Part shown: positions 47,330-60,423 of the stretch, piece by piece | Layout: every line of letters begins with the position of its first letter | Numbering within the stretch: the first letter of the stretch is position 1 | Assembly (NCBI RefSeq): GCF_001027285.1 | Contig: NZ_CP011509.1 | Span: 1,930,501-1,994,500 of the forward strand | Length of the DNA: 64,000 nt | Direction of reading: 5' to 3' | From: Archangium gephyra | GTDB taxonomy: Bacteria; Myxococcota; Myxococcia; Myxococcales; Myxococcaceae | Program-made: the position numbers and the translations under genes | Notes under the pieces: model-generated | The model's input: the letters and a program-made list of their open reading frames with translations, nothing else | What the model was told of the DNA's origin: nothing | Databases searched by the model: none

Positions 47330-48979
47330 CTACGAGGCCGCGTGCCGGACTTCCGGGGCGGACTCCGGCTCCACCAGCCGGCCCGAGTCCAGCCGCACGA
47401 GCCGATCGGCCACGTGGAAGTAGCGATCGTCGTGGCTGATGACGAGCACGGCCTTGCCCGCGCGCTTCATCTCGGGGAGCAGCTCCTCGTAGAAGATCTG
47501 CTTGAAGAGCGGATCCTGGTCCGCCGCCCACTCGTCGAAGACATAGATGGGGCGATCCTCCAGCCACGAGGCGAGCAGCGCCAGGCGCTTGCGCTGGCCC
47601 AGGGACAGCTCGGTGGTGGAGAGCTTTCCGTCCGTGACACGCACCTTCTGATCCAGGTTCAGCCGCTTCAGGTAGTGCGCCACCTTCCCGGACTGCTCGG
47701 GCGGGGCCAGGCCGAGCAGGCTCTCGAAGAGGTGGAAGTCCGAGAAGACGGTGGAGAAGAGCTGGCGGTAGGCGTCGCGCGTGGCCTCGGTGACGGGCTG
47801 GCCATCCAGCCGCACCTCGCCGGACTCGGGCGTGTAGAGGCCGGTGAAGATCTTCGCCAGGCTCGTCTTCCCGCTGCCGTTGCCGCCCACCAGGAAGAGC
47901 AGCTCGCCCGGCTCCAGGCTCAGGTTGATGGGGCCGAGCGTGAAGCGGCCGTCGTCGTTCTCGCGGTGGTACGAATGGGTGACGCCCACCAGCTCCAGCC
48001 GGCGGAAGGTGGGCGGCGCGGTGCCGGCGGGCGGGGCCTGGGACGCCTCGGCGGTGGCCTCCAGGGACAGGCCCATCTCCTCCACCTTCTTCAACGCCAC
48101 GTCCGCGCGCGCCAGGAAGGGCACGAACTCGGTGAGCGTCTGCAGCGGCTGCTGAAGGTAGAGCACCGTGAGCGAGTAGCCCGTCAGCTCGGCCAGGCTC
48201 AGCGTGCTGAAGGCGGGCATGGCGAAGATGAGCAGGCCGATGACGACGAAGAACAGGAACATGCCCCAGCTGCTGCTGGCCGAGTAGATGTTGAGGCTGC
48301 GCGTGTACATGCGCCGCAGCGAGGCCGCCGTGCCCGCCAGCTGCTCGCCGAGGAAGACCTCGCGGCGGCCACTGTGGAGCTTGAGCTCCTTGATGCCCTC
48401 GGTGAGCGAGCGGAAGTGCTTGAAGAGCACGTCCTGCGTCTTGCGGGCCTCGCCGATCCCCTTCACGGCCAGGCCGCTGAAGAACGAGAACGACACGACG
48501 CCGAGCGCCATGAAGACGATCATCCCCAGGAAGAGCTTCCAGGACAGCCACGCCATCCACACCAGACAGCCGAGGAGGATGGCGGCGTTGACGACGATGA
48601 GGGGCAGCAACATCAGCCCGCTGCTGACCGTGACGATGTCGTCCGTCAGGGTGGCGATCATCCGGTGGGCGCCCAGCTCCTCGAAGCGGCGCAGGGGCGC
48701 CGAGACGATGCTGCGGCTGAGCCGCAGGCGCATGGTGTAGAGCGCTTCCTGCTGCATCCCGTTGAGCAGCACCTGCGAGATGATGCGGGTCGCCAGCGCC
48801 AGCACCATCAGGCCGATGAAGCCGCTCACCAGGGTGCGCTCCGGGATGTCGGTGCCGGTCAGCTTGCGGTTGATGAGCGCGATGAGGGCGGCGCTGCTTC
48901 CTCCGGAGAGCAGCCCGCAGAGGGCCGACACCAGGACGCTGCCGCGCGAGGCGCGGAGCAGGAGGGCCAGGAGTTTCAT
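47330..48979 (-). CDS. Cyclic-peptide-type ABC exporter (SyrD/PvdE/YojI-like)
   Basis: A 549-residue fused permease-ATPase. Six membrane segments lie in residues 12-300. The ATPase (about 335-545) has Walker A GGNGSGKTS, a variant signature LSLGQRKRLALL and Walker B IYVFDEWAADQDP. The LSLGQRKRLALL and FDEWAADQDP forms are hallmarks of the cyclic-peptide exporter family (TIGR01194), which exports lipopeptides and siderophore precursors (SyrD, PvdE) to the periplasm. It lies 3.6 kb from the FAAL/NRPS operon on the same strand, with one kinase gene between, and is the obvious export candidate for its product. Confidence 0.92.
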   Translation of the reverse strand: MKLLALLLRASRGSVLVSALCGLLSGGSSAALIALINRKLTGTDIPERTLVSGFIGLMVLALATRIISQVLLNGMQQEALYTMRLRLSRSIVSAPLRRFEELGAHRMIATLTDDIVTVSSGLMLLPLIVVNAAILLGCLVWMAWLSWKLFLGMIVFMALGVVSFSFFSGLAVKGIGEARKTQDVLFKHFRSLTEGIKELKLHSGRREVFLGEQLAGTAASLRRMYTRSLNIYSASSSWGMFLFFVVIGLLIFAMPAFSTLSLAELTGYSLTVLYLQQPLQTLTEFVPFLARADVALKKVEEMGLSLEATAEASQAPPAGTAPPTFRRLELVGVTHSYHRENDDGRFTLGPINLSLEPGELLFLVGGNGSGKTSLAKIFTGLYTPESGEVRLDGQPVTEATRDAYRQLFSTVFSDFHLFESLLGLAPPEQSGKVAHYLKRLNLDQKVRVTDGKLSTTELSLGQRKRLALLASWLEDRPIYVFDEWAADQDPLFKQIFYEELLPEMKRAGKAVLVISHDDRYFHVADRLVRLDSGRLVEPESAPEVRHAAS

Positions 48980-49312
48980 GGGGTCCTAGGGGTGCTTCAA
49001 GAGCTCGAAGTGTGCTCCGGGCACTTCGTGGATGTCCAGCCGACCGGGATCATCGAATTTTCTGATCCAACCGGATACGGGCGCTGCGGAGTGGAGGCAC
49101 ATGTGCCGCCACCTGCCCCCGTGCCGCAGAGGGGCCCACCGGCCCTGGAGGCCAGGGCGGTTGACCACCCGTGAACGCCCCGGGTGCGCGGTGCGTCGGC
49201 CGAGTGCCGCCGGGTGGACGTTCATCACGTCCCGAGGCGAAGGGCACTCACCAACCCTCCCCCCCATGAGCATACCGAGCACGCAACCAAGGGAGATGGG
49301 GGAGGTGCCGGC
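48980..49312. other. Divergent control region between exporter and Ser/Thr kinase
   Basis: 333 bases without a gene; both neighbours point outward, so two promoters lie here. The notable element is an imperfect 22-bp palindrome at 49091-49112. An AT-richer patch lies at 49050-49080. A GGGGGAGG site at the right end serves the kinase. No small gene was supported. Confidence 0.6.
49091..49112. promoter_or_regulatory. 22-bp palindrome between exporter and kinase
   Basis: GTGGAGGCACATGTGCC followed by GCCAC. The core GGCACATGTGCC (49096-49107) is perfect, and GTGG/CCAC extends it with a single mismatched pair. Its place in a divergent gap suggests an operator for a dimeric regulator controlling one or both genes. 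Confidence 0.5.
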
Positions 49313-52300
49313 ATGGCCACATACCGACTCATCCGCAAGCTGGCAGCAGGCGGCATGGCGGAGGTGTTCCTGGCCAAGGTGGTCGGGGCCGAAGGCTTCG
49401 AGAAGCCGGTCGCAGTCAAGCGGATCCTCCCGTCGCTGGCGCAGGACCGGGAGTTCGTGGAGCTGTTCCTGCGCGAGGCGAAGCTGACGGTGTGCTTGCA
49501 GCACGCCAACGTGGTGCAGGTGTTCGATCTGGGCTCCATCAACGGCCAGTACTACATGGTGATGGAGTTCGTGGACGGGGAGAACCTGCGCGCGGTGCAG
49601 CGCGGGGCCGCGGGCAACCAGGTGCCGCTGGGCCTGCGCGAGGTGTGCTTCATCGTCCAGCAGGTGACGGAAGGCCTGGCGTACGCGCATGGACGCGCGG
49701 ACGCGGTGGGCCGGCCGCTCAACATCATCCACCGCGACGTCAATCCGTCCAACGTGATGGTGGCCAGCAGCGGCGAGGTGAAGCTGGCGGACTTCGGCAT
49801 CGCCAAGGCGGCCAACGCGCAGAATGGCACCCAGGCGGGCGTGGTGAAGGGCAAGGCGGGCTACCTCGCGCCGGAGCAGGTGAAGGGCGCCGAGGTGGAT
49901 CAGCGCGCGGACCTCTTCCTCATTGGCCTGATGCTGTACGAGCTGCTCGCGGGCAGGCAGCTCTTCAGCGGGCCGGACTACTTCCTGACGCTGCGCAACA
50001 TCGCCCAGTTCGACGTGAAGAGCCTGGCGCCGGTGCCGGGAGTGCCGCCGGCGCTCTGGAGCATCGTCACCCGGGCGCTGGCGCCGGAGCCGTCCGCGCG
50101 CTTCCAGCGGGCGCGGGACATCTCGGACGCGCTGCAGAACTTCCTCTTCGACCACCGGCTGCGCGTGGGCCCGCAGGACGTGGCGGCGCTCTTCTCGCGC
50201 TGCTTCCCCGAGCGCCGCTCGCCGCTGGAGGGCTCCACCGAGGTGCGGGGGGAGGAGATCCGCCTGGGCTCGGACGCGGGGCTGCAGCGCCCGCCGACGC
50301 TCACCTCGGTGCGCTCGCGCCCACCCTTCCCGGGTGGGGCGCGTCCGGGCACCTCGTCGCTTCCCTCGATGCGGGCGGTGACGGATCCGGGCCGGTTGAC
50401 GCCGCCGCCTCCGCCGCCCGAGGCGCGCGCGGGCACCTCCGTCACCATGCAGGTGCCGCCTCCGCAGCCCGTGGGCCGGAGCACCTCCGTCACCATGCAG
50501 GTGGGTCCTCCGGCCGGCGTGCGCACGGGGACGCAGCCCGGTCTCAACACCGCCCTCTCGCTGCCGACGCAGACGCGCGTGATGCGCCCGCCGCGCCGCA
50601 AGCTGGGGGAGATGCTGGTGGCCTCGGGCCGGCTGTCGGAGACGCAGCTCAAGGGCGCCCTGGAGCGGCAGAAGCGCACCGGTGGCCGCATCGGCGAGCT
50701 GCTCGTCGCCGAGGGGATCGTGGCCGAGGAGGACGTGGTCCGCGCCCTCAGCGAGCAGGGAGGCATCTCCTTCGTCTCGGACAAGGTGCTGCGCACCATG
50801 CCGGTGCCCAAGGCGCTGCTGTCGCTGCTGCCGCTGGAGAAGGCCGAGCGGCTCGAGGCGGTGCCCGTGGCCCAGCAGGCCAAGGAGCTGGTGTGCGCCA
50901 TGCGCGAGCCGCGCGACCTGGCCCGCCTGGACGAGCTGAAGTTCATCACCGGCTGCTCCGTGCGTGGCATCTACGCCACCGAGGGAGCCATCCGCCGCGC
51001 CATCGGCCGCTTCTACCGCGGGGATGACCCGGACCAGATGGACGACTGGTCCACCATGATGCCGCTGGCGGGCTCCGAGTCGGACAAGGGCGTCACGCCC
51101 TACGCCGACAAGCACACCCGCACGCGCGAGCGCCTGCTGGACGAGTCCGCCTTCGAGGAGATCTCCTCGGCGCCCACGCCGCCGCCCGCGGCCCCGCCGC
51201 CGGTGCTCGAGCCCACCCCCGTGCCCGCGCCGCCGGTGCTGCGCGCGACGCCCGCGCCCGCCTCGCTGGCGCGCACCATGTTGGTGGTGTCGGATGATCA
51301 GGAGCTGCGCGACGCGGCGGTGCGGTTGCTGACGCGTCAGGGCGTGGCGGCCTCGGGCAGCAGCGCCGCGGATGTGGAGAAGGCCATGGCGCTGGGCGGC
51401 ACCGAGGTGGCGCTGGTGGCCGCGGACACAGTGCAGGATGCGCCCGCCGTGGTCGCGCGGCTGATGACGGTGGCGCCCTCCATGGAGGTGCGCGTGCTGC
51501 CCTCGCTGGCCGAGGCCCTCGGAGGCGAGGCCGGTCCGTTGAGCCGCGCGGCGCGGTTGCATGCCCGCGTGGTGGACGCGGCGCTCGCGGCGCTCGGGGG
51601 CGTGGGCGTGCAGGGCGCGGCGCTGGCCAAGCTGGCCCGGCGCGTGGCCCGGCGGCTCGGCGCGGGCCGTGCGGAGGCCGAGCGGGCTTCCGCCGTGGCG
51701 TATGCCCTGGCACTCGCGGCCTTCCAGGAGTCGGGCTCGGGCGAGCGTTTCCTCCGGCCCTCGTGTGAGTCGATGCGCGCCATCCTCGGCCGCGACGCGG
51801 GCGAGCTGGCCGGGCTCATCGGGGCGTGCACCCGGGACGCGGCGCCACTGTCGGAGAAGGCGGACAAGGCCACGCAGGCGCTGGCCGCGGCGGTGTCGCT
51901 GCTGGAGGTCGCGGGCACGGCCATGCTGGGGGCCGCGGCCGCGTCGCAGTCGCTCGTCAAGCTGCGCGCCGAGGGGCGGCTGCCCGCGGCGGCCCTGGAA
52001 GCGCTCTCCGCGGAGGTGATGGAGCTGGTGCTGGGCGAGAAGGCCTCGCACACGGTGGTGCTCGCCGAGCCCAACGCGGCGCGGGCCTCGGCGCTCCAGG
52101 CGCGCTTCCTCGCGGACGGGGTGCGGGTGGTGCTCGCCGACTCTGCGGCCCGGGCCCGCGTGCTGCTCTCCGAGGGCAGCCAGGCGCTCGTGGTGGCCTC
52201 GCGGCTCCCGGACGGGGATGGTGCCGAGCTCACGCGCTCGCTGCGCTCCGCCTCGGAAACGGCCGCGCTGCCCATCTTCGTGCTGGCGCCTCCGGAGGAT

Positions 52301-52489
52301 CCGGGTCTGGTGGAGGCCGGGCTGGATGCCGGCGCGGACGACGTCCTCACGTACCCCGTCAATCCGGAGGTGCTGGTGGCCAAGCTGCGGCGTGCGTTGC
52401 AGCCTCGCCGGGCATCGGTGACTCCGACCCCGGCTCCGGCTCCCGTGGCGGCGGCGATGGCCTCGGCCTCCGTTTCCGTCAGCGCCTGA
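49313..52489 (+). CDS. Ser/Thr protein kinase with MshEN domain and receiver-like tail
   Basis: A 1058-residue signalling protein. The kinase domain (1-275) has GGMAEVFLAK, Lys36 in VAVKRIL, the catalytic loop HRDVNPSN with Asp142, DFG at 160-162 and APEQ. A Pro-rich linker contains a repeated TSVTMQV. Residues about 425-560 match the MshEN (GspE N-terminal) domain (KLGEMLVASGRLSETQLKGAL, split IGELLVAEGIV), which in other proteins binds cyclic di-GMP. Near 655-740 and 908-1035 are receiver-like domains whose phospho-Asp site is lost (ALVVASRLPDGDG). Neither the kinase nor the tail has a membrane helix. GGGGGAGG precedes ATG 49313. It lies inside the biosynthetic locus on the opposite strand. 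Confidence 0.9.
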   Translation: MATYRLIRKLAAGGMAEVFLAKVVGAEGFEKPVAVKRILPSLAQDREFVELFLREAKLTVCLQHANVVQVFDLGSINGQYYMVMEFVDGENLRAVQRGAAGNQVPLGLREVCFIVQQVTEGLAYAHGRADAVGRPLNIIHRDVNPSNVMVASSGEVKLADFGIAKAANAQNGTQAGVVKGKAGYLAPEQVKGAEVDQRADLFLIGLMLYELLAGRQLFSGPDYFLTLRNIAQFDVKSLAPVPGVPPALWSIVTRALAPEPSARFQRARDISDALQNFLFDHRLRVGPQDVAALFSRCFPERRSPLEGSTEVRGEEIRLGSDAGLQRPPTLTSVRSRPPFPGGARPGTSSLPSMRAVTDPGRLTPPPPPPEARAGTSVTMQVPPPQPVGRSTSVTMQVGPPAGVRTGTQPGLNTALSLPTQTRVMRPPRRKLGEMLVASGRLSETQLKGALERQKRTGGRIGELLVAEGIVAEEDVVRALSEQGGISFVSDKVLRTMPVPKALLSLLPLEKAERLEAVPVAQQAKELVCAMREPRDLARLDELKFITGCSVRGIYATEGAIRRAIGRFYRGDDPDQMDDWSTMMPLAGSESDKGVTPYADKHTRTRERLLDESAFEEISSAPTPPPAAPPPVLEPTPVPAPPVLRATPAPASLARTMLVVSDDQELRDAAVRLLTRQGVAASGSSAADVEKAMALGGTEVALVAADTVQDAPAVVARLMTVAPSMEVRVLPSLAEALGGEAGPLSRAARLHARVVDAALAALGGVGVQGAALAKLARRVARRLGAGRAEAERASAVAYALALAAFQESGSGERFLRPSCESMRAILGRDAGELAGLIGACTRDAAPLSEKADKATQALAAAVSLLEVAGTAMLGAAAASQSLVKLRAEGRLPAAALEALSAEVMELVLGEKASHTVVLAEPNAARASALQARFLADGVRVVLADSAARARVLLSEGSQALVVASRLPDGDGAELTRSLRSASETAALPIFVLAPPEDPGLVEAGLDAGADDVLTYPVNPEVLVAKLRRALQPRRASVTPTPAPAPVAAAMASASVSVSA

Positions 52490-52550: not shown

Positions 52551-52607
52551 CTTTTAGAAGACCGCGCCCGGCGGACCTCCTGGTGGTTCCGCCCCGTCAA
52601 CGGGGGC

Positions 52608-55600
52608 TCATTTCCTCCCCCTGCCCGCCTTGATGAGGAGGGCTTGCTGCTGCAGGGCCTGACGTTGTTTCTGGGCCCTGTCCTCGAGCCGTTGTTGGCT
52701 CTGTCCGGAGACCGCCGCCGCTCCACCCTGCGCCTGGGCGATGTGCCGGGCGAGCGCGGCGACGGTGGGATGCTGGAAGAGCTCCACCATGGAGAAGCGC
52801 CGGCCGAAAGCCGCGGCGAGCTTCTCGTGCACCTGGACCATGAGGAGCGAGTGCCCGCCCAGGTCGAAGAAGTTGCCGTGCAGGCCCACCTTGTCGACCT
52901 CGAGGGCCTCCTGCCAGATGGCGGCGATGGTTTGCTCTATCTGGTTGGTGGGGGCCTCGTAGGGGACGTGGGACTCGCGCGAGGCGGCGCGGGGATCGGG
53001 CAGCGCGGCGCGGTCCACCTTGCCGTTGCGCGTGAGCGGCAGGCGCGCGAGTGGAACCAGCGCCCATGGCACCATGAACTCGGGCAGCAGCTGTCTCAGC
53101 AGGCCCCGGAGCTGGTGGGCCAACTCGTTTCCCGTGGCCTCGGCACCCGGCGGCAGGCCCTGGCGCGGGACGAAGTAGCCCACGAGGTGTTGCTCGCCCG
53201 GCTGCGTCTCGCGCAGCACCACGATGACCTCGCCCACCTCGGGGTGGGTCCGCATCACGGCTTCGATTTCACCTGGCTCGATGCGCAGGCCCCGCAGCTT
53301 CACCTGGTGATCGGCGCGGCCGAGGAACTCGATGCGGCCATCCCCGCGCCAGCGTCCGAGGTCTCCCGTGCGGTAGAGACGCGAGCCCGGCGCGCCCGAG
53401 GGGTCGGGGATGAAGCGCTCGGCGGTGAGCTCGGGACGGCCGATGTAGCCCCGGCCCACGCCCGCGCCACCGATGTAGAGCTCGCCCGGGAGGCCGGGGG
53501 GCACCGGGCGCAGGAACGCGTCCAGCAGGTGCACGCGCACGTTGCCGAGTGGCCCGCCGAGGGTAGGCTCGGGGGAAGCCGCCACGGGGCAGGTGGTGGC
53601 GTTCACCGTGCACTCGGTGGGGCCGTACATGTTGACGAAGCGCGTGCGCGAGCGGGCGCGCAGCTCCGTCCAGGTGCTCGGGGTGATGGCCTCGCCGCCC
53701 ACCAGCACGAGCGCGGGGGAGAAGTCCGGCTCACGGCCCAGGCCCTGCTCCAGCAGGGGCCCCAGCAGCGAGGGCGTGGTGTCCAGCACATCGAGCGCCC
53801 ACCGTTGCACGAAGCCTCGCATCCGCGACGCATCCAGGCGGGCCTCCTCAGGGACGAGGTGCAGCGAGTGGCCGTTGAGCAGCTGCACCCACTGTTTGAC
53901 GGAGGTGTCGAAGACGAGCGGTCCGTTGAGGCTGACGCGCAGTCCGGGGCCCCGGCCCTCGTAGACGGTGTCGCGCAGGGTGGCGGCGAGGTTGAGCAGC
54001 GAGCGGTGCTGGATCATCACCCCCTTGGGCCTGCCCGTGGAGCCGGAGGTGAAGAGCACATAGGCGAGCTGCTCGGGCGCGACGGGGACCTCGGGGGCGG
54101 TGTCCGGCGCGCTGGAGATCCGCTCGGCATCGGAGTCCAGGAGGACGGGGCTGGCCACGCCCTCGGGGAGTAGGGACTGGAGGTGGGAGCGGGTGACGAC
54201 GAGCCGGGCCTCGGCCTGCTGGAGCATGGAGCCGAGGCGCTCGCGCGGGTAGAGAGGGTCGAGCGGCACGAAGGCACCGCCGGCCTGGAGGATGGCGAGC
54301 AGGGCGACGATCTGCTCCACGGAGCGCTCCAGGAAGAGGCCCACGCGCGTCTCGGGGCCCACGCCCAGCGAGCGCAGGTGCCACGCGAGCCGGTGGGCGC
54401 GGGAGGCCAGCTGGGCGAAGGTGAGCCGCTCGTCCTCGAAGGCCACGGCGAGCGCGTCCGGAGTGCTCCGGGCCACGGCGGCGAAGCGCTCGGGGAAGCT
54501 GCCCGTGGTGTCGTAGGGGCGCTCGGTGCGGTGGAGCGACTCCAGCCATTGCAGCTCGTTGCGGTGCATCACCGGCAGGGACTCCAGCGTGCGCTCCGGA
54601 TTCGTGGCCGCCGTCTCCAGCAGCGCGAGCAGCCGCTCCCCCATCACTTCACTGGAGTGGCGCGCCGCGTCCGCCTGGATTTCCAGGTCGAGCATCCCCT
54701 GGCGCTGCCCGCAGCTCAGCTTGAGCTCGAAGCGGCTGGTGCAGGCGCTCAGCCGCAGGGGCGTGAAGGTGAGGCCGTCGTGGTGGCGCTCCTCGGGCCA
54801 GGTGAAGTCCTCGAAGGCGAAGGGGAAGGGGGGCGCCTTCGCCACGTCGAAGTACTCCTGCCACGCCCCGGTGTCCTGCGTGGCCCGGGCCACCTCACGG
54901 GCGAAATCGGCGAAGCGGGTGCGTGCGCGCACCTCGCACCGCAGCGGGAGGTAGCGCTCGAAGAGACCGATGGCCTCCTCCAGTCCTTCGTAGGTGCGGC
55001 CATCGAAGCGCACCGCCACGGACCACTCGAGGCGCTCGGAGAGGCGGGCCAGCAGGAGCTGCCAGCAGGCCAGCACGAAGGTCGTCACCGGTACGCCGAT
55101 GCGGCCCGCCGCGGCCTTCACGGACGCGGTGAAGCCGGGGGGGAGCTCCCTGGGCCGCCATGAGCTGGGGCTGAAGGTCCGCTCGGGTTCACGGGGGTCC
55201 GGGGCGGGGAGCGTGAGGCCCTCCCAGTGGCGCTGGCCGTCGCGGGCGTCCTCGGACTCCAGGAGTTGCTGGAACACCTCCGACACGTCCGCGTACTGCA
55301 TCGCGGGCTCGGGCAGGGGCTCGCCGCCCCCCTGGGCCGCCCAGGCTCCGGCGAGCTCACGGACAAGACAGGCCAGTCCCTGCCGGTCCGCCGCGAGCGC
55401 CGGCAGGTCCACCACCAGCAGGTGCCGCTCGGGCTCGAGCGTGGCCAGCCACAGGCCGCCCGGCTCCTCCGGTGCGCGCTCCTCGGGCGTGTAGCTCCAC
55501 GGGTTCTCGGACGGGCCGAGCAACAGGTCCTCCAGCAGGTTGCTCCACCACTGCGCGCGGGGGCCCGTCCAGTCGAGCTCCCGCAGCACGGGGGTGGGCA

Positions 55601-55835
55601 CGTCCCCCGGCACCTGGACGGCGGTCTCCGTGCCCGGGAGCCGGCGGTACGTGGTGCGGAGGATCTCCTGCCGGGAGACGACTTCCCTCACGGCGCGCTC
55701 GAGGCGTGGCTTGTCCAGCGGGCCCCGGAGCTCCACCACGCACTGCGCGCGGTAGGGCGTGTCCGGGCTCGGGACGAGCCGCGCCCAGAGGTGGGCCTGC
55801 TGGGGAGACAGCCGGAAGCCGTTGGAGGAGGACAT
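52608..55835 (-). CDS. NRPS module C-A-PCP with degenerate condensation domain
   Basis: A 1075-residue single module. Residues about 10-450 are a condensation domain, but at the HHxxxDG position (about 137) it reads DLPALAADRQG, so both catalytic His are absent. The adenylation domain (about 465-945) has LFTSGSTGRPKG, YGPTE, YRTGDLGRW and NGKVDR. I read its specificity pocket as D-T-K-D-L-G-M-V-N-K, close to the published glutamate code D-A-K-D-L-G-V-V-D-K. The PCP (about 955-1030) has the attachment Ser in FFDLGGHSLL. A Gln-rich tail follows and no thioesterase. AGGAG precedes ATG 55835, 11 bases after the dioxygenase gene. Confidence 0.92.
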   Translation of the reverse strand: MSSSNGFRLSPQQAHLWARLVPSPDTPYRAQCVVELRGPLDKPRLERAVREVVSRQEILRTTYRRLPGTETAVQVPGDVPTPVLRELDWTGPRAQWWSNLLEDLLLGPSENPWSYTPEERAPEEPGGLWLATLEPERHLLVVDLPALAADRQGLACLVRELAGAWAAQGGGEPLPEPAMQYADVSEVFQQLLESEDARDGQRHWEGLTLPAPDPREPERTFSPSSWRPRELPPGFTASVKAAAGRIGVPVTTFVLACWQLLLARLSERLEWSVAVRFDGRTYEGLEEAIGLFERYLPLRCEVRARTRFADFAREVARATQDTGAWQEYFDVAKAPPFPFAFEDFTWPEERHHDGLTFTPLRLSACTSRFELKLSCGQRQGMLDLEIQADAARHSSEVMGERLLALLETAATNPERTLESLPVMHRNELQWLESLHRTERPYDTTGSFPERFAAVARSTPDALAVAFEDERLTFAQLASRAHRLAWHLRSLGVGPETRVGLFLERSVEQIVALLAILQAGGAFVPLDPLYPRERLGSMLQQAEARLVVTRSHLQSLLPEGVASPVLLDSDAERISSAPDTAPEVPVAPEQLAYVLFTSGSTGRPKGVMIQHRSLLNLAATLRDTVYEGRGPGLRVSLNGPLVFDTSVKQWVQLLNGHSLHLVPEEARLDASRMRGFVQRWALDVLDTTPSLLGPLLEQGLGREPDFSPALVLVGGEAITPSTWTELRARSRTRFVNMYGPTECTVNATTCPVAASPEPTLGGPLGNVRVHLLDAFLRPVPPGLPGELYIGGAGVGRGYIGRPELTAERFIPDPSGAPGSRLYRTGDLGRWRGDGRIEFLGRADHQVKLRGLRIEPGEIEAVMRTHPEVGEVIVVLRETQPGEQHLVGYFVPRQGLPPGAEATGNELAHQLRGLLRQLLPEFMVPWALVPLARLPLTRNGKVDRAALPDPRAASRESHVPYEAPTNQIEQTIAAIWQEALEVDKVGLHGNFFDLGGHSLLMVQVHEKLAAAFGRRFSMVELFQHPTVAALARHIAQAQGGAAAVSGQSQQRLEDRAQKQRQALQQQALLIKAGRGRK

Positions 55836-55846
55836 GGCGGAGTCTC

Positions 55847-56890
55847 CTAGGAAGAGGCGGGGACGGGGCGCACGTCGTCCCAGGGGAAGAGGCGGGCCAT
55901 GCCGACGAGCACTTGGCGGGGGCCCGAGAAGGGCGTGCGCGCGTGCGCGGCGAGCATGTTGTCGACGACGAGCAGGTCTCCCCGCTCCCAGGGGAAGGAG
56001 ACCGTCTCGGCGTGGTAGGCCGCGCGCAGCGTCTCCAGCACCTCGGGCTCGATGGGCGAGCCGTCGCCGTAATAGGTGTTGTTGGGCAGGTCCTCCTCGC
56101 CGAACTCCGCGAGCAGCGCCGAGGCCACCGCGGGCGGCAGCGTCGAGACGTGGAAGAACGTGGCGTGGTTGAACCACACCGGCTCGCCGCTGACGGGGTG
56201 GAGCCCGGCGGCGCGGCGCACCTGGCGCGTCCTCAGCCGCTGGCCCTCGCGCCACTCGAACTGGATGTGATGGCGGCGGCAGTAGGCCTCGACCTCGGCG
56301 GGCGATTGCGTCTGGAAGGCCGTCTGCCAGCTCAGGCCGAACTGGCCGCCGAAGTTGCGCACGTACGTGTAGCCCTGCTCCAGGAAGCGGGTGCGCAGCG
56401 AGGGGGGCAGGCGCTGGAAGACGCGGCGCGAGTCCACCAGGGGCGTGCGGCCTCCCTCCCGCGCGGGCGTCACGCAGCAGAAGAACAGGCGCAGGGGGAA
56501 GGCCTGGTTATAGGACTGCTCGTTGTGCGGGAAGATGTGCTCGGCGGGCGGATGGTCCGTGGAGGTGTAGACGTTGCCGCTCACCTGCGAGCGCGGCGAG
56601 GAGCGCTCCTCGTAGGGCAGGGACTCGCCGGCCACGGCGCGGATGGCGCGCTCCAGGGCCTCGGCGGAGGCGATGTCGAAGCCGCGGAAGAGCACGGCGC
56701 CATGGCGGTGCAGCTGCTCGTCCACGCGCGCGCGGTGCCGGCGGGCCCAGTCGGCGAGGTCCACGCCCGGCAGCGTGGGCCGGGCGAGCACGGGCAGTGA
56801 GAGACCAGGCTGGAGGGGCTCGAAGCGGATCCAATCCTCGCCGGACTCCGCCACTTCGCGGCGCTTCACCTGGGGGAGTGCCTTCTTCAT
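55847..56890 (-). CDS. TauD/TfdA-family dioxygenase, SyrP-like
   Basis: A 347-residue Fe(II)/2-oxoglutarate-dependent oxygenase. The iron triad is visible: His122 and Glu124 in FPHNEQSYN, and distal His316 in NMLAAHARTPF. Arg325 in GPRQVLVG is the likely 2-oxoglutarate contact. ERSSPRSQVSGNVYTST and the overall length resemble SyrP and related NRPS-associated hydroxylases; SyrP beta-hydroxylates a carrier-bound aspartate. Here it lies between the two assembly-line genes and its start overlaps the FAAL gene stop by 4 bases, so it almost certainly modifies the bound amino acid. Which carbon is oxidised is inferred. Confidence 0.9.
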   Translation of the reverse strand: MKKALPQVKRREVAESGEDWIRFEPLQPGLSLPVLARPTLPGVDLADWARRHRARVDEQLHRHGAVLFRGFDIASAEALERAIRAVAGESLPYEERSSPRSQVSGNVYTSTDHPPAEHIFPHNEQSYNQAFPLRLFFCCVTPAREGGRTPLVDSRRVFQRLPPSLRTRFLEQGYTYVRNFGGQFGLSWQTAFQTQSPAEVEAYCRRHHIQFEWREGQRLRTRQVRRAAGLHPVSGEPVWFNHATFFHVSTLPPAVASALLAEFGEEDLPNNTYYGDGSPIEPEVLETLRAAYHAETVSFPWERGDLLVVDNMLAAHARTPFSGPRQVLVGMARLFPWDDVRPVPASS

Positions 56891-59800
56891 GGTGTGCCTT
56901 CCCCGGTCTTGCGGCGCACGTTGCGGAACAGGTCCTGCCGCTTGGACTTCAGCTCCTCGGCCCGGGCGCGCTCGCGCTGCCGCTCGTGCTCGGTGAGGAC
57001 GTCGCGCAGCTCCTCCACCGTGGCGTCCGGACGCCGCACGGCGGCCGAGAGCACGGTCTGGTAGTCCTCCGCGAGCCGGGCGATGGTGGCGCCGTCGAAG
57101 AGCGCGGTGCTGTAGCGCAACACGCCGCCCAGCTGGCCTGCGTGCTTGGACAGCAGCACCGAGAGATCGAAGGGGGAGCCGCCGTCATCGAGCTCGAGCA
57201 GCTCCAGGCGCAGGCCGGGCAGCTCCAGCGCGGGCAGGGGGGCGTTCTCCAGGACGAACATCACCTGGAAGAGCGGGTTGTAGCGGGCGTCTCGCGGAGG
57301 GCGGAGTGTCTCGACGAGCTTGTCGAAGGGGACATGCGGGTGCGCGTACGCACCGAGCGCCACCTGCCGCACGCGGGCGAGCACCTGCCGGAAGGTGGGG
57401 TTGCCCGAGAGGTCCACGCGCAGGACGAGCTGGTTGACGAAGAGGCCCACCAACCGCTGCGTGCGCGGATTCTCCCGGTGGGCGATGTCCGTGCCCACCA
57501 CCAGGTCGGTGCGGCCGGTGCGCTGGTGGAGCGTCACGAGGAAGCCGGCGAGCAGCACCATGAAGGGCGTGGCGCCCTCGGCCTGTCCGAGCTGTTCGAG
57601 CCCCCCGGTGAGGGGCGCGGAGAGCTGGAGCGGATGGCGAGCACCCTCGAAGGACGGGGTGGTGGGGCGGGGCCTGTCCGTGGGCAGCTCCAGCAGCGGA
57701 GGCATGCCGGTGAGGCGCTCCTTCCACCAGGACTGCTCGGCGGCCAGCGTGCCGTCCTCCAGCCAGCGCCGCTGCCATGCGGCGTAATCCGTGTACTGGA
57801 GGCGAGGCGTGGGCAGGGGCGAGGGGCGGCCCTCGGCGAAGGCGGGATAGAGGGCGCCCAGCTCGCGGACGAGCACGCCCAGGGTCCACCCATCCGAGAC
57901 GATGTGGTGCACCGAGAGCACCAGCCGGTGCCGCTCCGGGGCGAGCTTCAGCAGCTTCGCACGCAGCAGCGGGCCGCGCTCCAGGTCGAAGCGCTCGCGG
58001 GCCTCCAGGGTGGTGAGCCGGGTGGCCTCGGCCTCGCGCTCGGACTCGGGCAGGCGGGACAGGTCCACGAGCGCGCCCTCTCCGGCGAGCGGGCCCAGGT
58101 CTGGCACCTGCCCGGCGGGGAGCAGCACCTGCACGCGCTTGCCCTCCACGAAGGGGAAGCGGGCGCGCAGCGAGTCATGCCGGCGGAGGAGCGCCGCGAG
58201 GCTTCGTCCCAGGGCCTCCACGTCGAGCCGTCCCTCCAGCTTCACCGCCGTGGCGACGTTGTACGCTGAGGTGCCCGTCGCGAGCTGGTCCAGGAAGAGC
58301 AGCCGCTCCTGGCCGTAGGAGAGGGGAGGGTGGGGCCCGTGGTCCGCGGGCTCGAGCGGGGGCGGCGCGGAGGGCGCGGGGTGCAGGGCCTCCAGCGCGC
58401 GGGTGGTGAGGGTGCGCAGGCTGACGCCATCGAGCAGCAGCGCCACGGGCAGGTGGATGCCCAGCTCCTCCTCCAGCGCGCCCTTGAGCTCGATGGCGTG
58501 GATGGAGTCCAGGCCGAACGCGGTGAGGGGCCGCTCCTCGTCCAGCGCGGAGGCGGGCACGGCCAGCGCGCGCGAGAGACGGTGCCGCAGGTGCTCGCCG
58601 AGCAGCCGGGGCCGTTCCGTCTCCGGCGTGCCCAGCAGGGCCTCGCGGGTGAGGAGGGGCGGCTCGGCGGTGGCCGTGTTCACGGGCTGGGGCGTGGTGC
58701 TCTCGGTGACGAGCTCCAGCTCGCCCGCGAGGTACATGGCGCGGCAGGTGCCACGCTGAATCTTGCCGCTGGACGTCTTGGGGATGTGGCCCGCGGGGAC
58801 GAGCACCACGCGGCCCGGTGCCACCTCGTGCTGCTCGGCGATGGCGCGGCGGATGGCCTCCACGGCCTCGGTGGGCTCCGGGAGCTTCGCGCGGTCCACC
58901 TCGTGCACGAGCACCAGTTGCTCCTGTCCCTCCACGTCCAGGCCGAAGGCGGCGGAGCAGCCCGGGCGCAGCGCGGGGTGGCTGGCCTCGGCGGTCTGCT
59001 CCAGGTCCTGCGGGTAGAGGTTGCGCCCGCGCAGGATGATGAGGTCCTTGATGCGGCCCGCGACGAACAGCTCGCCGCCCGAGAGCAACCCGAGGTCTCC
59101 CGTGCGCAGCCAGGGCCCCTCCCCGGTGTCGCTCCGGCGGGCGCGGAAGGTCTGCTCGCTCAGCTCGGGCCGGCCCCAGTAGCCCTGGGCCACGCTGCCG
59201 CCGCGCACCCAGATCTCCCCCAGCTGTCCCTCGGGCACGGGGACGAGTGTCTCGGGGTGGGCGATGAGCAGCTCCTGGTCCAGCACGCTCGCGCCACAGC
59301 CCACGAGCTGGCGCATGCGCCCGGTGCCCTCCTGCTTCCAGTCGCGCACCACGGGCGGCTCGCCCTGGCGCCCACCGGTGACGAGCAGGGTGCCCTCGGC
59401 CAGGCCGTAACACGGGAAGAAGGCCTCGCGGCGGAAACCGGAGACGGCGAAGGCCTCGGCGAAGCGCTCGAGTGTTTCGGCGCGCACGGGCTCGGCGCCG
59501 TTGAAGGCCAGGCGCCAGGAGCTCAGGTCCAACGCGGCGCGCTGCTCGGGCGTGGTCTTCCGCACGCACAAGTCGTAGGCGAAGTTCGGCCCACCGCTGT
59601 GCGTGCCCCGGTGGCGCGAGATGGCCTCGAGCCAGCGCACGGGCCGCTTGAGGAAGTCCAGCGGCGACATCAGCACCACGGGGATGCCGGCGAACAGCGG
59701 CTGGAGCACGCCGCCGATGAGGCCCATGTCGTGGTAGGGCGGCAGCCAGATGACGCCCACGCTCCCGGGCGAGGGCTCGAAGCCGCGCTGGATGGCCGTC

Positions 59801-60423
59801 GAGTTGTGCAGCAGGTTGCCGTGGCTGAGCATCACCCCGCGCGGCGTGCCCGTGGAGCCCGAGGTGTATTGGAGGAACGCGAGCGACTCGCGCGTGAGGC
59901 CCGGGTTCTTCCAGGCGCTGGCCGCGTCCGCGGGGACCTCGTCGGTGGCCACCCACGTCAGTCCGGCCAGTCCGGGGAACTGCTCGGCCAGCCCGTCCGC
60001 CATGGAGCGGATGAATTCATTCGTGAGCGCGAAGCGGGCGCGCGCGTCGGAGATGAGCGCCTCGAGCCGTGGGAGCGTCCGTCCCAGGCGCATCGGGTCC
60101 GGCGGGTAGGCCGGCACGGCGATGGCTCCGGCGTAGATGCAGCCCACGAAGGCCGTCACGTAGTCGAGCCCGGGCGGGTAGAGCAGCAGCACCCGCTCGC
60201 CCCGGGCTCCCCGCTCCTGCAGGAATGCGCCGATGGCGCGTGCCCGGGCATCCAGCCCGGCGTAGGTGAGGCGCGCTTCTTCTGTCTCGCCGTCGACCAG
60301 GAAGGTGTAGGCGAGCTCCTCGGGCTGCGATTCGGCACGGCGGCGCGACAGCTCGAGGAGCGAGGCGGAGTCGAACGAAGAGGATGGTGCCAAAGCCCCG
60401 GGGTTTCTAGCACGCGGGCACAA
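56887..60423 (-). CDS. Fatty acyl-AMP ligase - ACP - condensation protein (FAAL-ACP-C)
   Basis: A 1178-residue lipoinitiation protein. The FAAL (about 15-575) has YTSGSTGTPRGVMLSHGN, PYHDMGLIGG and FFPCYGLAE. It activates a fatty acid as acyl-AMP and passes it to the ACP rather than CoA. The ACP (about 600-690) has the attachment Ser in FGLDSIHAIEL. The C domain (about 715-1150) has an intact HHIVSDG near 838 and can form the acyl amide. A basic tail follows. No ATG start exists: TTG 60423 with GGGGTGG upstream is the earliest start, and TTG 60393 is possible. It is the first gene of the operon, overlapping the dioxygenase by 4 bases. Confidence 0.92.
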   Translation of the reverse strand: MCPRARNPGALAPSSSFDSASLLELSRRRAESQPEELAYTFLVDGETEEARLTYAGLDARARAIGAFLQERGARGERVLLLYPPGLDYVTAFVGCIYAGAIAVPAYPPDPMRLGRTLPRLEALISDARARFALTNEFIRSMADGLAEQFPGLAGLTWVATDEVPADAASAWKNPGLTRESLAFLQYTSGSTGTPRGVMLSHGNLLHNSTAIQRGFEPSPGSVGVIWLPPYHDMGLIGGVLQPLFAGIPVVLMSPLDFLKRPVRWLEAISRHRGTHSGGPNFAYDLCVRKTTPEQRAALDLSSWRLAFNGAEPVRAETLERFAEAFAVSGFRREAFFPCYGLAEGTLLVTGGRQGEPPVVRDWKQEGTGRMRQLVGCGASVLDQELLIAHPETLVPVPEGQLGEIWVRGGSVAQGYWGRPELSEQTFRARRSDTGEGPWLRTGDLGLLSGGELFVAGRIKDLIILRGRNLYPQDLEQTAEASHPALRPGCSAAFGLDVEGQEQLVLVHEVDRAKLPEPTEAVEAIRRAIAEQHEVAPGRVVLVPAGHIPKTSSGKIQRGTCRAMYLAGELELVTESTTPQPVNTATAEPPLLTREALLGTPETERPRLLGEHLRHRLSRALAVPASALDEERPLTAFGLDSIHAIELKGALEEELGIHLPVALLLDGVSLRTLTTRALEALHPAPSAPPPLEPADHGPHPPLSYGQERLLFLDQLATGTSAYNVATAVKLEGRLDVEALGRSLAALLRRHDSLRARFPFVEGKRVQVLLPAGQVPDLGPLAGEGALVDLSRLPESEREAEATRLTTLEARERFDLERGPLLRAKLLKLAPERHRLVLSVHHIVSDGWTLGVLVRELGALYPAFAEGRPSPLPTPRLQYTDYAAWQRRWLEDGTLAAEQSWWKERLTGMPPLLELPTDRPRPTTPSFEGARHPLQLSAPLTGGLEQLGQAEGATPFMVLLAGFLVTLHQRTGRTDLVVGTDIAHRENPRTQRLVGLFVNQLVLRVDLSGNPTFRQVLARVRQVALGAYAHPHVPFDKLVETLRPPRDARYNPLFQVMFVLENAPLPALELPGLRLELLELDDGGSPFDLSVLLSKHAGQLGGVLRYSTALFDGATIARLAEDYQTVLSAAVRRPDATVEELRDVLTEHERQRERARAEELKSKRQDLFRNVRRKTGEGTP

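Follow-up and report, generated by a model that had tools for sequence, protein, structure and literature searches.

In the 64,000-nucleotide stretch of the Archangium gephyra genome analysed here (the window), three minus-strand genes arranged head to tail encode a FAAL-ACP-C starter protein, a TauD oxygenase, and a one-module 'C'-A-PCP protein (Table 1). Annotated by Pfam alone, this operon shows two condensation domains. The one that opens the last protein is called the I domain below, and the protein I-A-PCP. No thioesterase is found by Pfam in any of the three proteins. Segments of the TauD protein with an HxE and a later histidine, which we take to be its iron ligands, are conserved across 16 aligned copies, and this TauD is the single match in the genome at E up to 0.001. 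The operon is adjoined by genes for a cyclic-peptide-export type ABC transporter (TIGR01194; window 47330-48979, minus strand) and for a kinase-MshEN-response-regulator protein (window 49184-52489, plus strand).

Table 1. Features of the operon, in window coordinates.
Feature	Position	Strand	Basis
I-A-PCP ('C'-A-PCP) gene	55835 to 52608	-	ORF, Pfam
Interface-type condensation-superfamily domain, residues 1-437 of the I-A-PCP protein	54525..55835	-	Pfam, alignment, trees, predicted fold
DLPALAADRQG, residues 143-153 of I-A-PCP; PA in place of the HH of HHxxxDG, Asp retained	55377..55409	-	Alignment
Adenylation domain, 9-residue code DTKDLGMVN (glutamate-like)	53019..54482	-	Pfam, code extraction
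Peptidyl carrier domain of the I-A-PCP protein	52740..52934	-	Pfam
Stand-alone TauD/clavaminate-synthase-like Fe(II)/2-oxoglutarate oxygenase	55847..56890	-	Pfam
FAAL-ACP-C starter protein, start codon provisional	56887..60423	-	Pfam
Intact HHIVSDG of the upstream C domain, residues 839-845, likely condensing site	57889..57909	-	Sequence
ATGAGCCCCC, overlapping the I-A-PCP stop; identical to the opening of the downstream A. lansinium PKS gene, the two sequences diverging from there on	52602..52611	-	

The initial annotation held that the C domain of the module has lost HHxxxDG at about residue 137, and that the C domain of FAAL-ACP-C has it in perfect form. Both are borne out, with the altered motif placed slightly past that residue and overlapping the region then marked: in an alignment of 98 C-type domains the canonical H-H-D falls on P-A-D in the I domain, so that the HHxxxDG of canonical condensation domains (LCL, DCL, starter) is absent from it. 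A displaced histidine pair would have undone this loss, and such a displacement is ruled out by the position of the only HH in residues 1-437 (351-352), about 208 residues from the motif. The Pfam Condensation model gives 102 bits for the I domain against 326 for the upstream C. The loss of HH is more than chance or decay: all 17 myxobacterial copies, the window's included, retain P and D at the motif, and none of 79 wider relatives (best 80 of 460 matches) has HH while every one of them keeps the Asp.

How far does such a domain extend among bacteria? Orthologues were searched for in 145 genomes of the order Myxococcales with about 11 candidates scored per genome, so that an orthologue in an NRPS-rich genome may be missed. 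An orthologous I domain is present in 17 genomes, the window's included, at 44% identity or more and at least 195 bits (next match 34% and 122 bits), and two of them are further Archangium genomes, A. violaceum Cb vi76 (G045, L039) and A. lansinium MIWBW (G043). The order FAAL-ACP-C, TauD, 'C'-A-PCP is seen in 14 of the 16 other myxobacterial loci, and the remaining two are cut by contig ends: L039 keeps TauD beside the module and L053 begins at the I domain. Ten plasmid-borne relatives, from cyanobacteria and one Bradyrhizobium, have LPALCAD-like motifs. For wider relatives, genome contigs were scanned with an alignment of 22 of 27 HH-less domains by patterns outside the motif, and the best 80 of 460 confirmed stretches were kept, giving 79 loci. 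Since they were gathered by similarity to I domains, these loci lean to close relatives and are not a random sample; they span cyanobacteria, myxobacteria, uncultured acidobacteria, Deltaproteobacteria, KSB1 and others.

A phylogeny of the domain had been proposed as a check, and it places the domain in an HH-less group in both trees made. In the tree of the 98 C-type domains, built from all columns, the 27 HH-less domains stand on one side of a branch (SH-aLRT 97), and the window domain groups with that of CcsL and other plasmid-borne ones (SH-aLRT 97), apart from canonical C domains. With the motif columns dropped (FastTree, a quick method), a branch with support 100 separates 83 motif-defined I domains, the window's included, from 168 HH-type domains and 6 others. 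Thirty-nine alignment columns are I-specific, being rare in HH-type domains, and the window domain keeps 32 of them.

What the initial annotation overlooked is the TauD gene between the two proteins, and it is this gene that would explain why a second C-type domain exists. In 60 of the 79 relatives (best 80 of 460), or 60 of the 76 with at least 1.5 kb of upstream sequence, a same-strand TauD gene has its end no more than 1.5 kb upstream, and the median gap from TauD to the I domain at these 60 loci is 74.5 bases. No TauD is found within 1.5 kb upstream of any of 149 HH-type C domains in the same loci, a set that leaves out 18 HH-type domains at contig edges and 6 'other' domains; TauD is also found beside all three additional I-like domains in these loci. 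Fisher's test of the association gives 3.9e-40, which is not a true probability since the relatives are not independent. All 16 myxobacterial copies with flanking sequence, the window's included, have TauD immediately upstream. Where TauD is fused to a neighbour, as it is in 16 of the 60 TauD-bearing loci, it continues the frame of the upstream C protein at that protein's end; no in-frame fusion to the I domain was found among the 60, so that the order C-TauD-I is kept.

We consider it highly likely that the second 'C' is an interface (I) domain, that is, a docking platform for the aminoacyl-PCP and TauD, with hydroxylation followed by acylation in trans by the starter C domain. In such a scheme, the A domain would load an amino acid, to judge from its code Glu or a similar residue, onto the PCP, and the I domain, having the C fold without the catalytic histidines, would hold the aminoacyl-PCP and the stand-alone TauD together. 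TauD would then hydroxylate the PCP-loaded residue, probably at the beta carbon, and finally the starter C of FAAL-ACP-C would join the ACP-borne fatty acyl group to the amine of the loaded residue in trans. Of this scheme, the data show the predicted fold, the family, the missing HH, the order of the genes and the link with TauD; the physical recruitment, the hydroxylation with its position and timing, and the identity of the amino acid are inferred. Pairwise distances over 56 loci correlate at 0.77 between I and TauD, at 0.57 between I and upstream C, and at 0.50 between TauD and C. The stronger I-TauD correlation leans towards contact of these two proteins, and much of the co-inheritance signal could stem from the genes sharing one operon.

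Sixteen of the 76 relatives have no TauD within 1.5 kb, and in three of these a TauD sits farther off within the flank examined. At E 1e-20 the genomes of ten of the sixteen have a TauD match somewhere and those of six have none, which means that an I domain can occur without a TauD partner, or is paired with something else. A Pfam scan of the long ORFs upstream of all 16 exceptions revealed no oxygenase in its stead. Fourteen of them have a condensation-domain protein upstream (in L135 an I-like one, then a partial A domain), L116 has a methyltransferase and an aminotransferase, and L136 has a radical SAM enzyme. The I domains in genomes without a TauD match are those of L090, L102, L110, L116, L130 and L140, and the unusual A code DARHMGVID stands behind four of them (L090, L102, L110 and L140). 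It might be supposed from these six genomes, and from the presence of the teicoplanin X domain, a C-fold platform for P450s, among the sequence and fold matches, that the domain recruits a partner other than TauD or is an ordinary inter-protein docking domain for FAAL-ACP-C. Such a reading has to face the TauD directly upstream of every myxobacterial copy with flank, and an I-TauD distance correlation exceeding that of I with the upstream C, and we give it the lowest probability of all the alternatives considered here.

A C-type domain was found upstream of the I domain in 72 of the 79 loci (best 80 of 460), and the nearest one is of HH type in 71 of them, the other (L135) being another HH-less I-like domain. 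No A-domain motif lies between the upstream C-type domain and the I domain in these 72 loci, and the gap is below 2 kb in 64. Of the seven loci where no upstream C was found, six have less than 3 kb of upstream sequence. HH of the upstream C is kept in all 15 readable myxobacterial orthologues, the window's included. Very probably, the acyl-amide bond is formed in trans by the upstream HH-type C domain, as was supposed before.

The I domain is the fastest-changing part, ahead of the adjoining A domain and TauD. Set against A. violaceum, the window's I domain has a dN/dS of 0.17, its A domain 0.18 and its TauD 0.21 (FAAL is left out, as the copy compared is non-orthologous, with about 60% identity); against A. 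lansinium the values are 0.47, 0.16 and 0.14 in the same order. Identity among myxobacterial copies outside Archangium is about 40-47% for I, 63-72% for A and 69-79% for TauD, and nucleotide matching of the I domain breaks at about window 55425-55569. Such fast divergence, together with a location where a C domain normally packs on A, would suit a former C domain whose histidines were lost once the upstream C took over, and which is kept as a structural platform for the A domain. However, the I-specific columns kept in the window, the same motif replacement across phyla, and a dN/dS against A. violaceum like that of the A domain all speak against a relic, which would also leave unexplained why TauD accompanies I domains and not HH-type ones. 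Although the I domain changes fastest, we reject the relic on its conserved columns and dN/dS, and regard it as very unlikely. The initial annotation had offered a structural or docking relic or a non-canonical subclass; it is the separate subclass that stands, on both trees.

An AlphaFold2 model of the I domain (61 sequences) has pLDDT 86.9 and pTM 0.88, with loop 108-120 uncertain. Foldseek and VIA-align give matches to C domains across nearly the whole length, the best with Z 38.4 (CDA C1) over 402 residues at 19% identity, and X domains and starter C domains are among the matches. A predicted fold by itself says nothing about function. C-superfamily members doing other chemistry are known, the dehydrating CmodAA being one, and 7r9x is among the fold matches; moreover, the motif Asp is invariant, and the Pro nearly so, in 61 aligned I domains. 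Could the domain then catalyze a different reaction on the PCP-bound residue with the His pair unused? In the 79 relatives (best 80 of 460) the first His column holds P in 69 and S in 10, the second is mostly Ala, and so no conserved candidate base replaces the histidines. A dedicated oxygenase adjoins, and the A code gives no hint of a dehydratable Ser or Thr. This possibility seems to us very unlikely, slightly more so than that of a relic, and the interface reading remains the one we adopt.

If the second domain is read as an interface, a hydroxylated first residue is predicted and hence a different product. Which residue would it be? A codes behind I domains were read from 72 of the 79 loci (best 80 of 460), no A motif being found in the other seven, and from the window. 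There are 28 A domains of Asp type (DLTKxGHxG), 11 of Asn type (D[LA]TKxGEVG), 14 of His type (DSALIAEVW), 10 glutamate-like ones including the window's (D[AT]KDLGMVN), four with DARHMGVID, four with other codes and two unread. DLTKxGEVG is taken by us as an Asn code. In published assignments, DLTKIGHV stands for Asp in a pyoverdine synthetase (PMC3207962), DSALIAEVWK is a His code accepting beta-OH (PMC12283262), and DAKDLGVV belongs to the first module, predicted for Glu/Asp, of a surfactin cluster (PMC10548584). The last code, as given there, is matched exactly by two myxobacterial orthologues (L041 and L042), whose DAKDLGVVD differs from the window code at three of nine positions, and the window code also differs from the surfactin Glu code at three of nine. 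The window code is of neither the Asp nor the His interface subtype, and suggests Glu or a similar residue. The TauD tree tracks the A-domain code, with 5 changes against 24.3 when shuffled (52 labelled of 61 rows), and the glutamate-like TauDs form one branch with support 100 and a long stem. Such agreement would arise equally from operon inheritance.

Downstream of the module, A. lansinium encodes KS-AT-KR-DH-ACP-C and C-A-T-C-A-T-C proteins, and then a MATE transporter and a penicillin-amidase-like protein, as found in pathways to acylated pro-drugs. Fourteen of the 16 other myxobacterial loci have a long reading frame on the same strand after the module; the two where none was seen are L039 (A. 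violaceum) and L043 (G114). The window genome and A. violaceum have the same kinase gene after the module, in place of PKS/NRPS genes, and a 10-base match to the A. lansinium PKS start remains in the window. The operon is cut short in the window and in A. violaceum Cb vi76, with its PKS/NRPS continuation seen in A. lansinium. Another KS-AT-KR-DH-ACP-C protein, 65% identical, is encoded in the window's genome at G000:C1:10248402-10258232 (L075, L076), followed by C-A-T-TE and a luciferase-like monooxygenase. A hand-off to this PKS is possible and unsupported, since the same locus is found in A. lansinium alongside its own downstream PKS. With dN/dS of 0.17-0.21 between the window and A. violaceum, selection still seems to act on the shortened operon.

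Two other kinds of C-like domain were noticed at these loci. One, with HxAxLDAG (second His lost), is located upstream of FAAL in eight loci (L043 14391-17384, L046 1768-4455, L048 15114-17804, L049, L050, L051, L052 and L054), and in L046, the only one of these scanned, a luciferase-like monooxygenase is attached to it; here too, perhaps, a C fold goes together with an oxygenase. The other, with HGLAVDG, is a near-terminal C-type domain of the post-module protein in L048 (170-6967) and L053 (3413-10270), and is grouped off ordinary C domains.

The feature is real, well conserved and of a known type. What may be new is a myxobacterial branch with a glutamate-like code, apparently outside siderophores, along with the shortened version of it in two Archangium genomes. 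It is tempting to go further, with considerable doubt, and to suppose that the myxobacterial branch hydroxylates a PCP-bound glutamate-like residue heading FAAL-started lipopeptides outside siderophores, and that in the window and A. violaceum Cb vi76 it has been reduced to a selected three-gene machine making or donating an N-acyl hydroxy-amino acid alone. The 79 relatives (best 80 of 460) yield a simple rule, C / TauD / I-A-PCP, which holds from cyanobacteria to myxobacteria with four code types, and they are test cases for oxygenase recruitment by C-fold domains.

Among known systems, the X domain of glycopeptide antibiotic NRPSs recruits P450s and precedes a thioesterase. By sequence and fold match (PDB 4tx2, 6m7l), the window domain resembles it, and would likewise be a C-fold platform without a condensation role that recruits an oxygenase; unlike it, the window domain precedes A-PCP, in a protein where Pfam shows no thioesterase. 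Closer are the interface domains of siderophore NRPSs, which, after work by Reitz and colleagues in 2019, are said to present the aminoacyl-PCP to a TauD-type hydroxylase. In common with them, the window has a C-superfamily domain with the His pair lost, placed before A-PCP, a TauD-type hydroxylase, and a separate functional upstream C, the pairing of module and TauD being read from gene order. It differs in its glutamate-like code, instead of Asp or His, in its stand-alone TauD, and in that no siderophore gene was noticed among the Pfam-scanned neighbours. In the available text of the sources, interface is a bacterial C subtype by name (PMC10212144), has a profile in antiSMASH 8 (PMC12230676), and is mentioned beside siderophore beta-hydroxylases; neither text, among the matches listed in mostly non-subscription literature, describes a Glu-type or myxobacterial interface domain. 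CcsL of Leptolyngbya sp. NIES-3755 opens with an LPSLCAD domain of the same HH-less family, and its source describes, in the part available, an Asp module preceded by a stand-alone beta-hydroxylase, CcsK, and a product, cyanochelin B, containing beta-OH-Asp (PMC12628792). Here the order C / stand-alone TauD / I-A-PCP is as in the window; unlike the window, CcsL has an Asp code, an epimerase in the module and an internal position, and its I domain is 28% identical to the window's. Potashchelin begins, as far as the available description goes, with FAAL-ACP-C-TauD-C-A(Asp)-PCP (PMC7100376). There TauD is fused to the C-domain protein, the residue is Asp, and the second C is not called inactive in that text, yet by the published description the order FAAL-ACP-C, TauD, C-A-PCP is that of the window.
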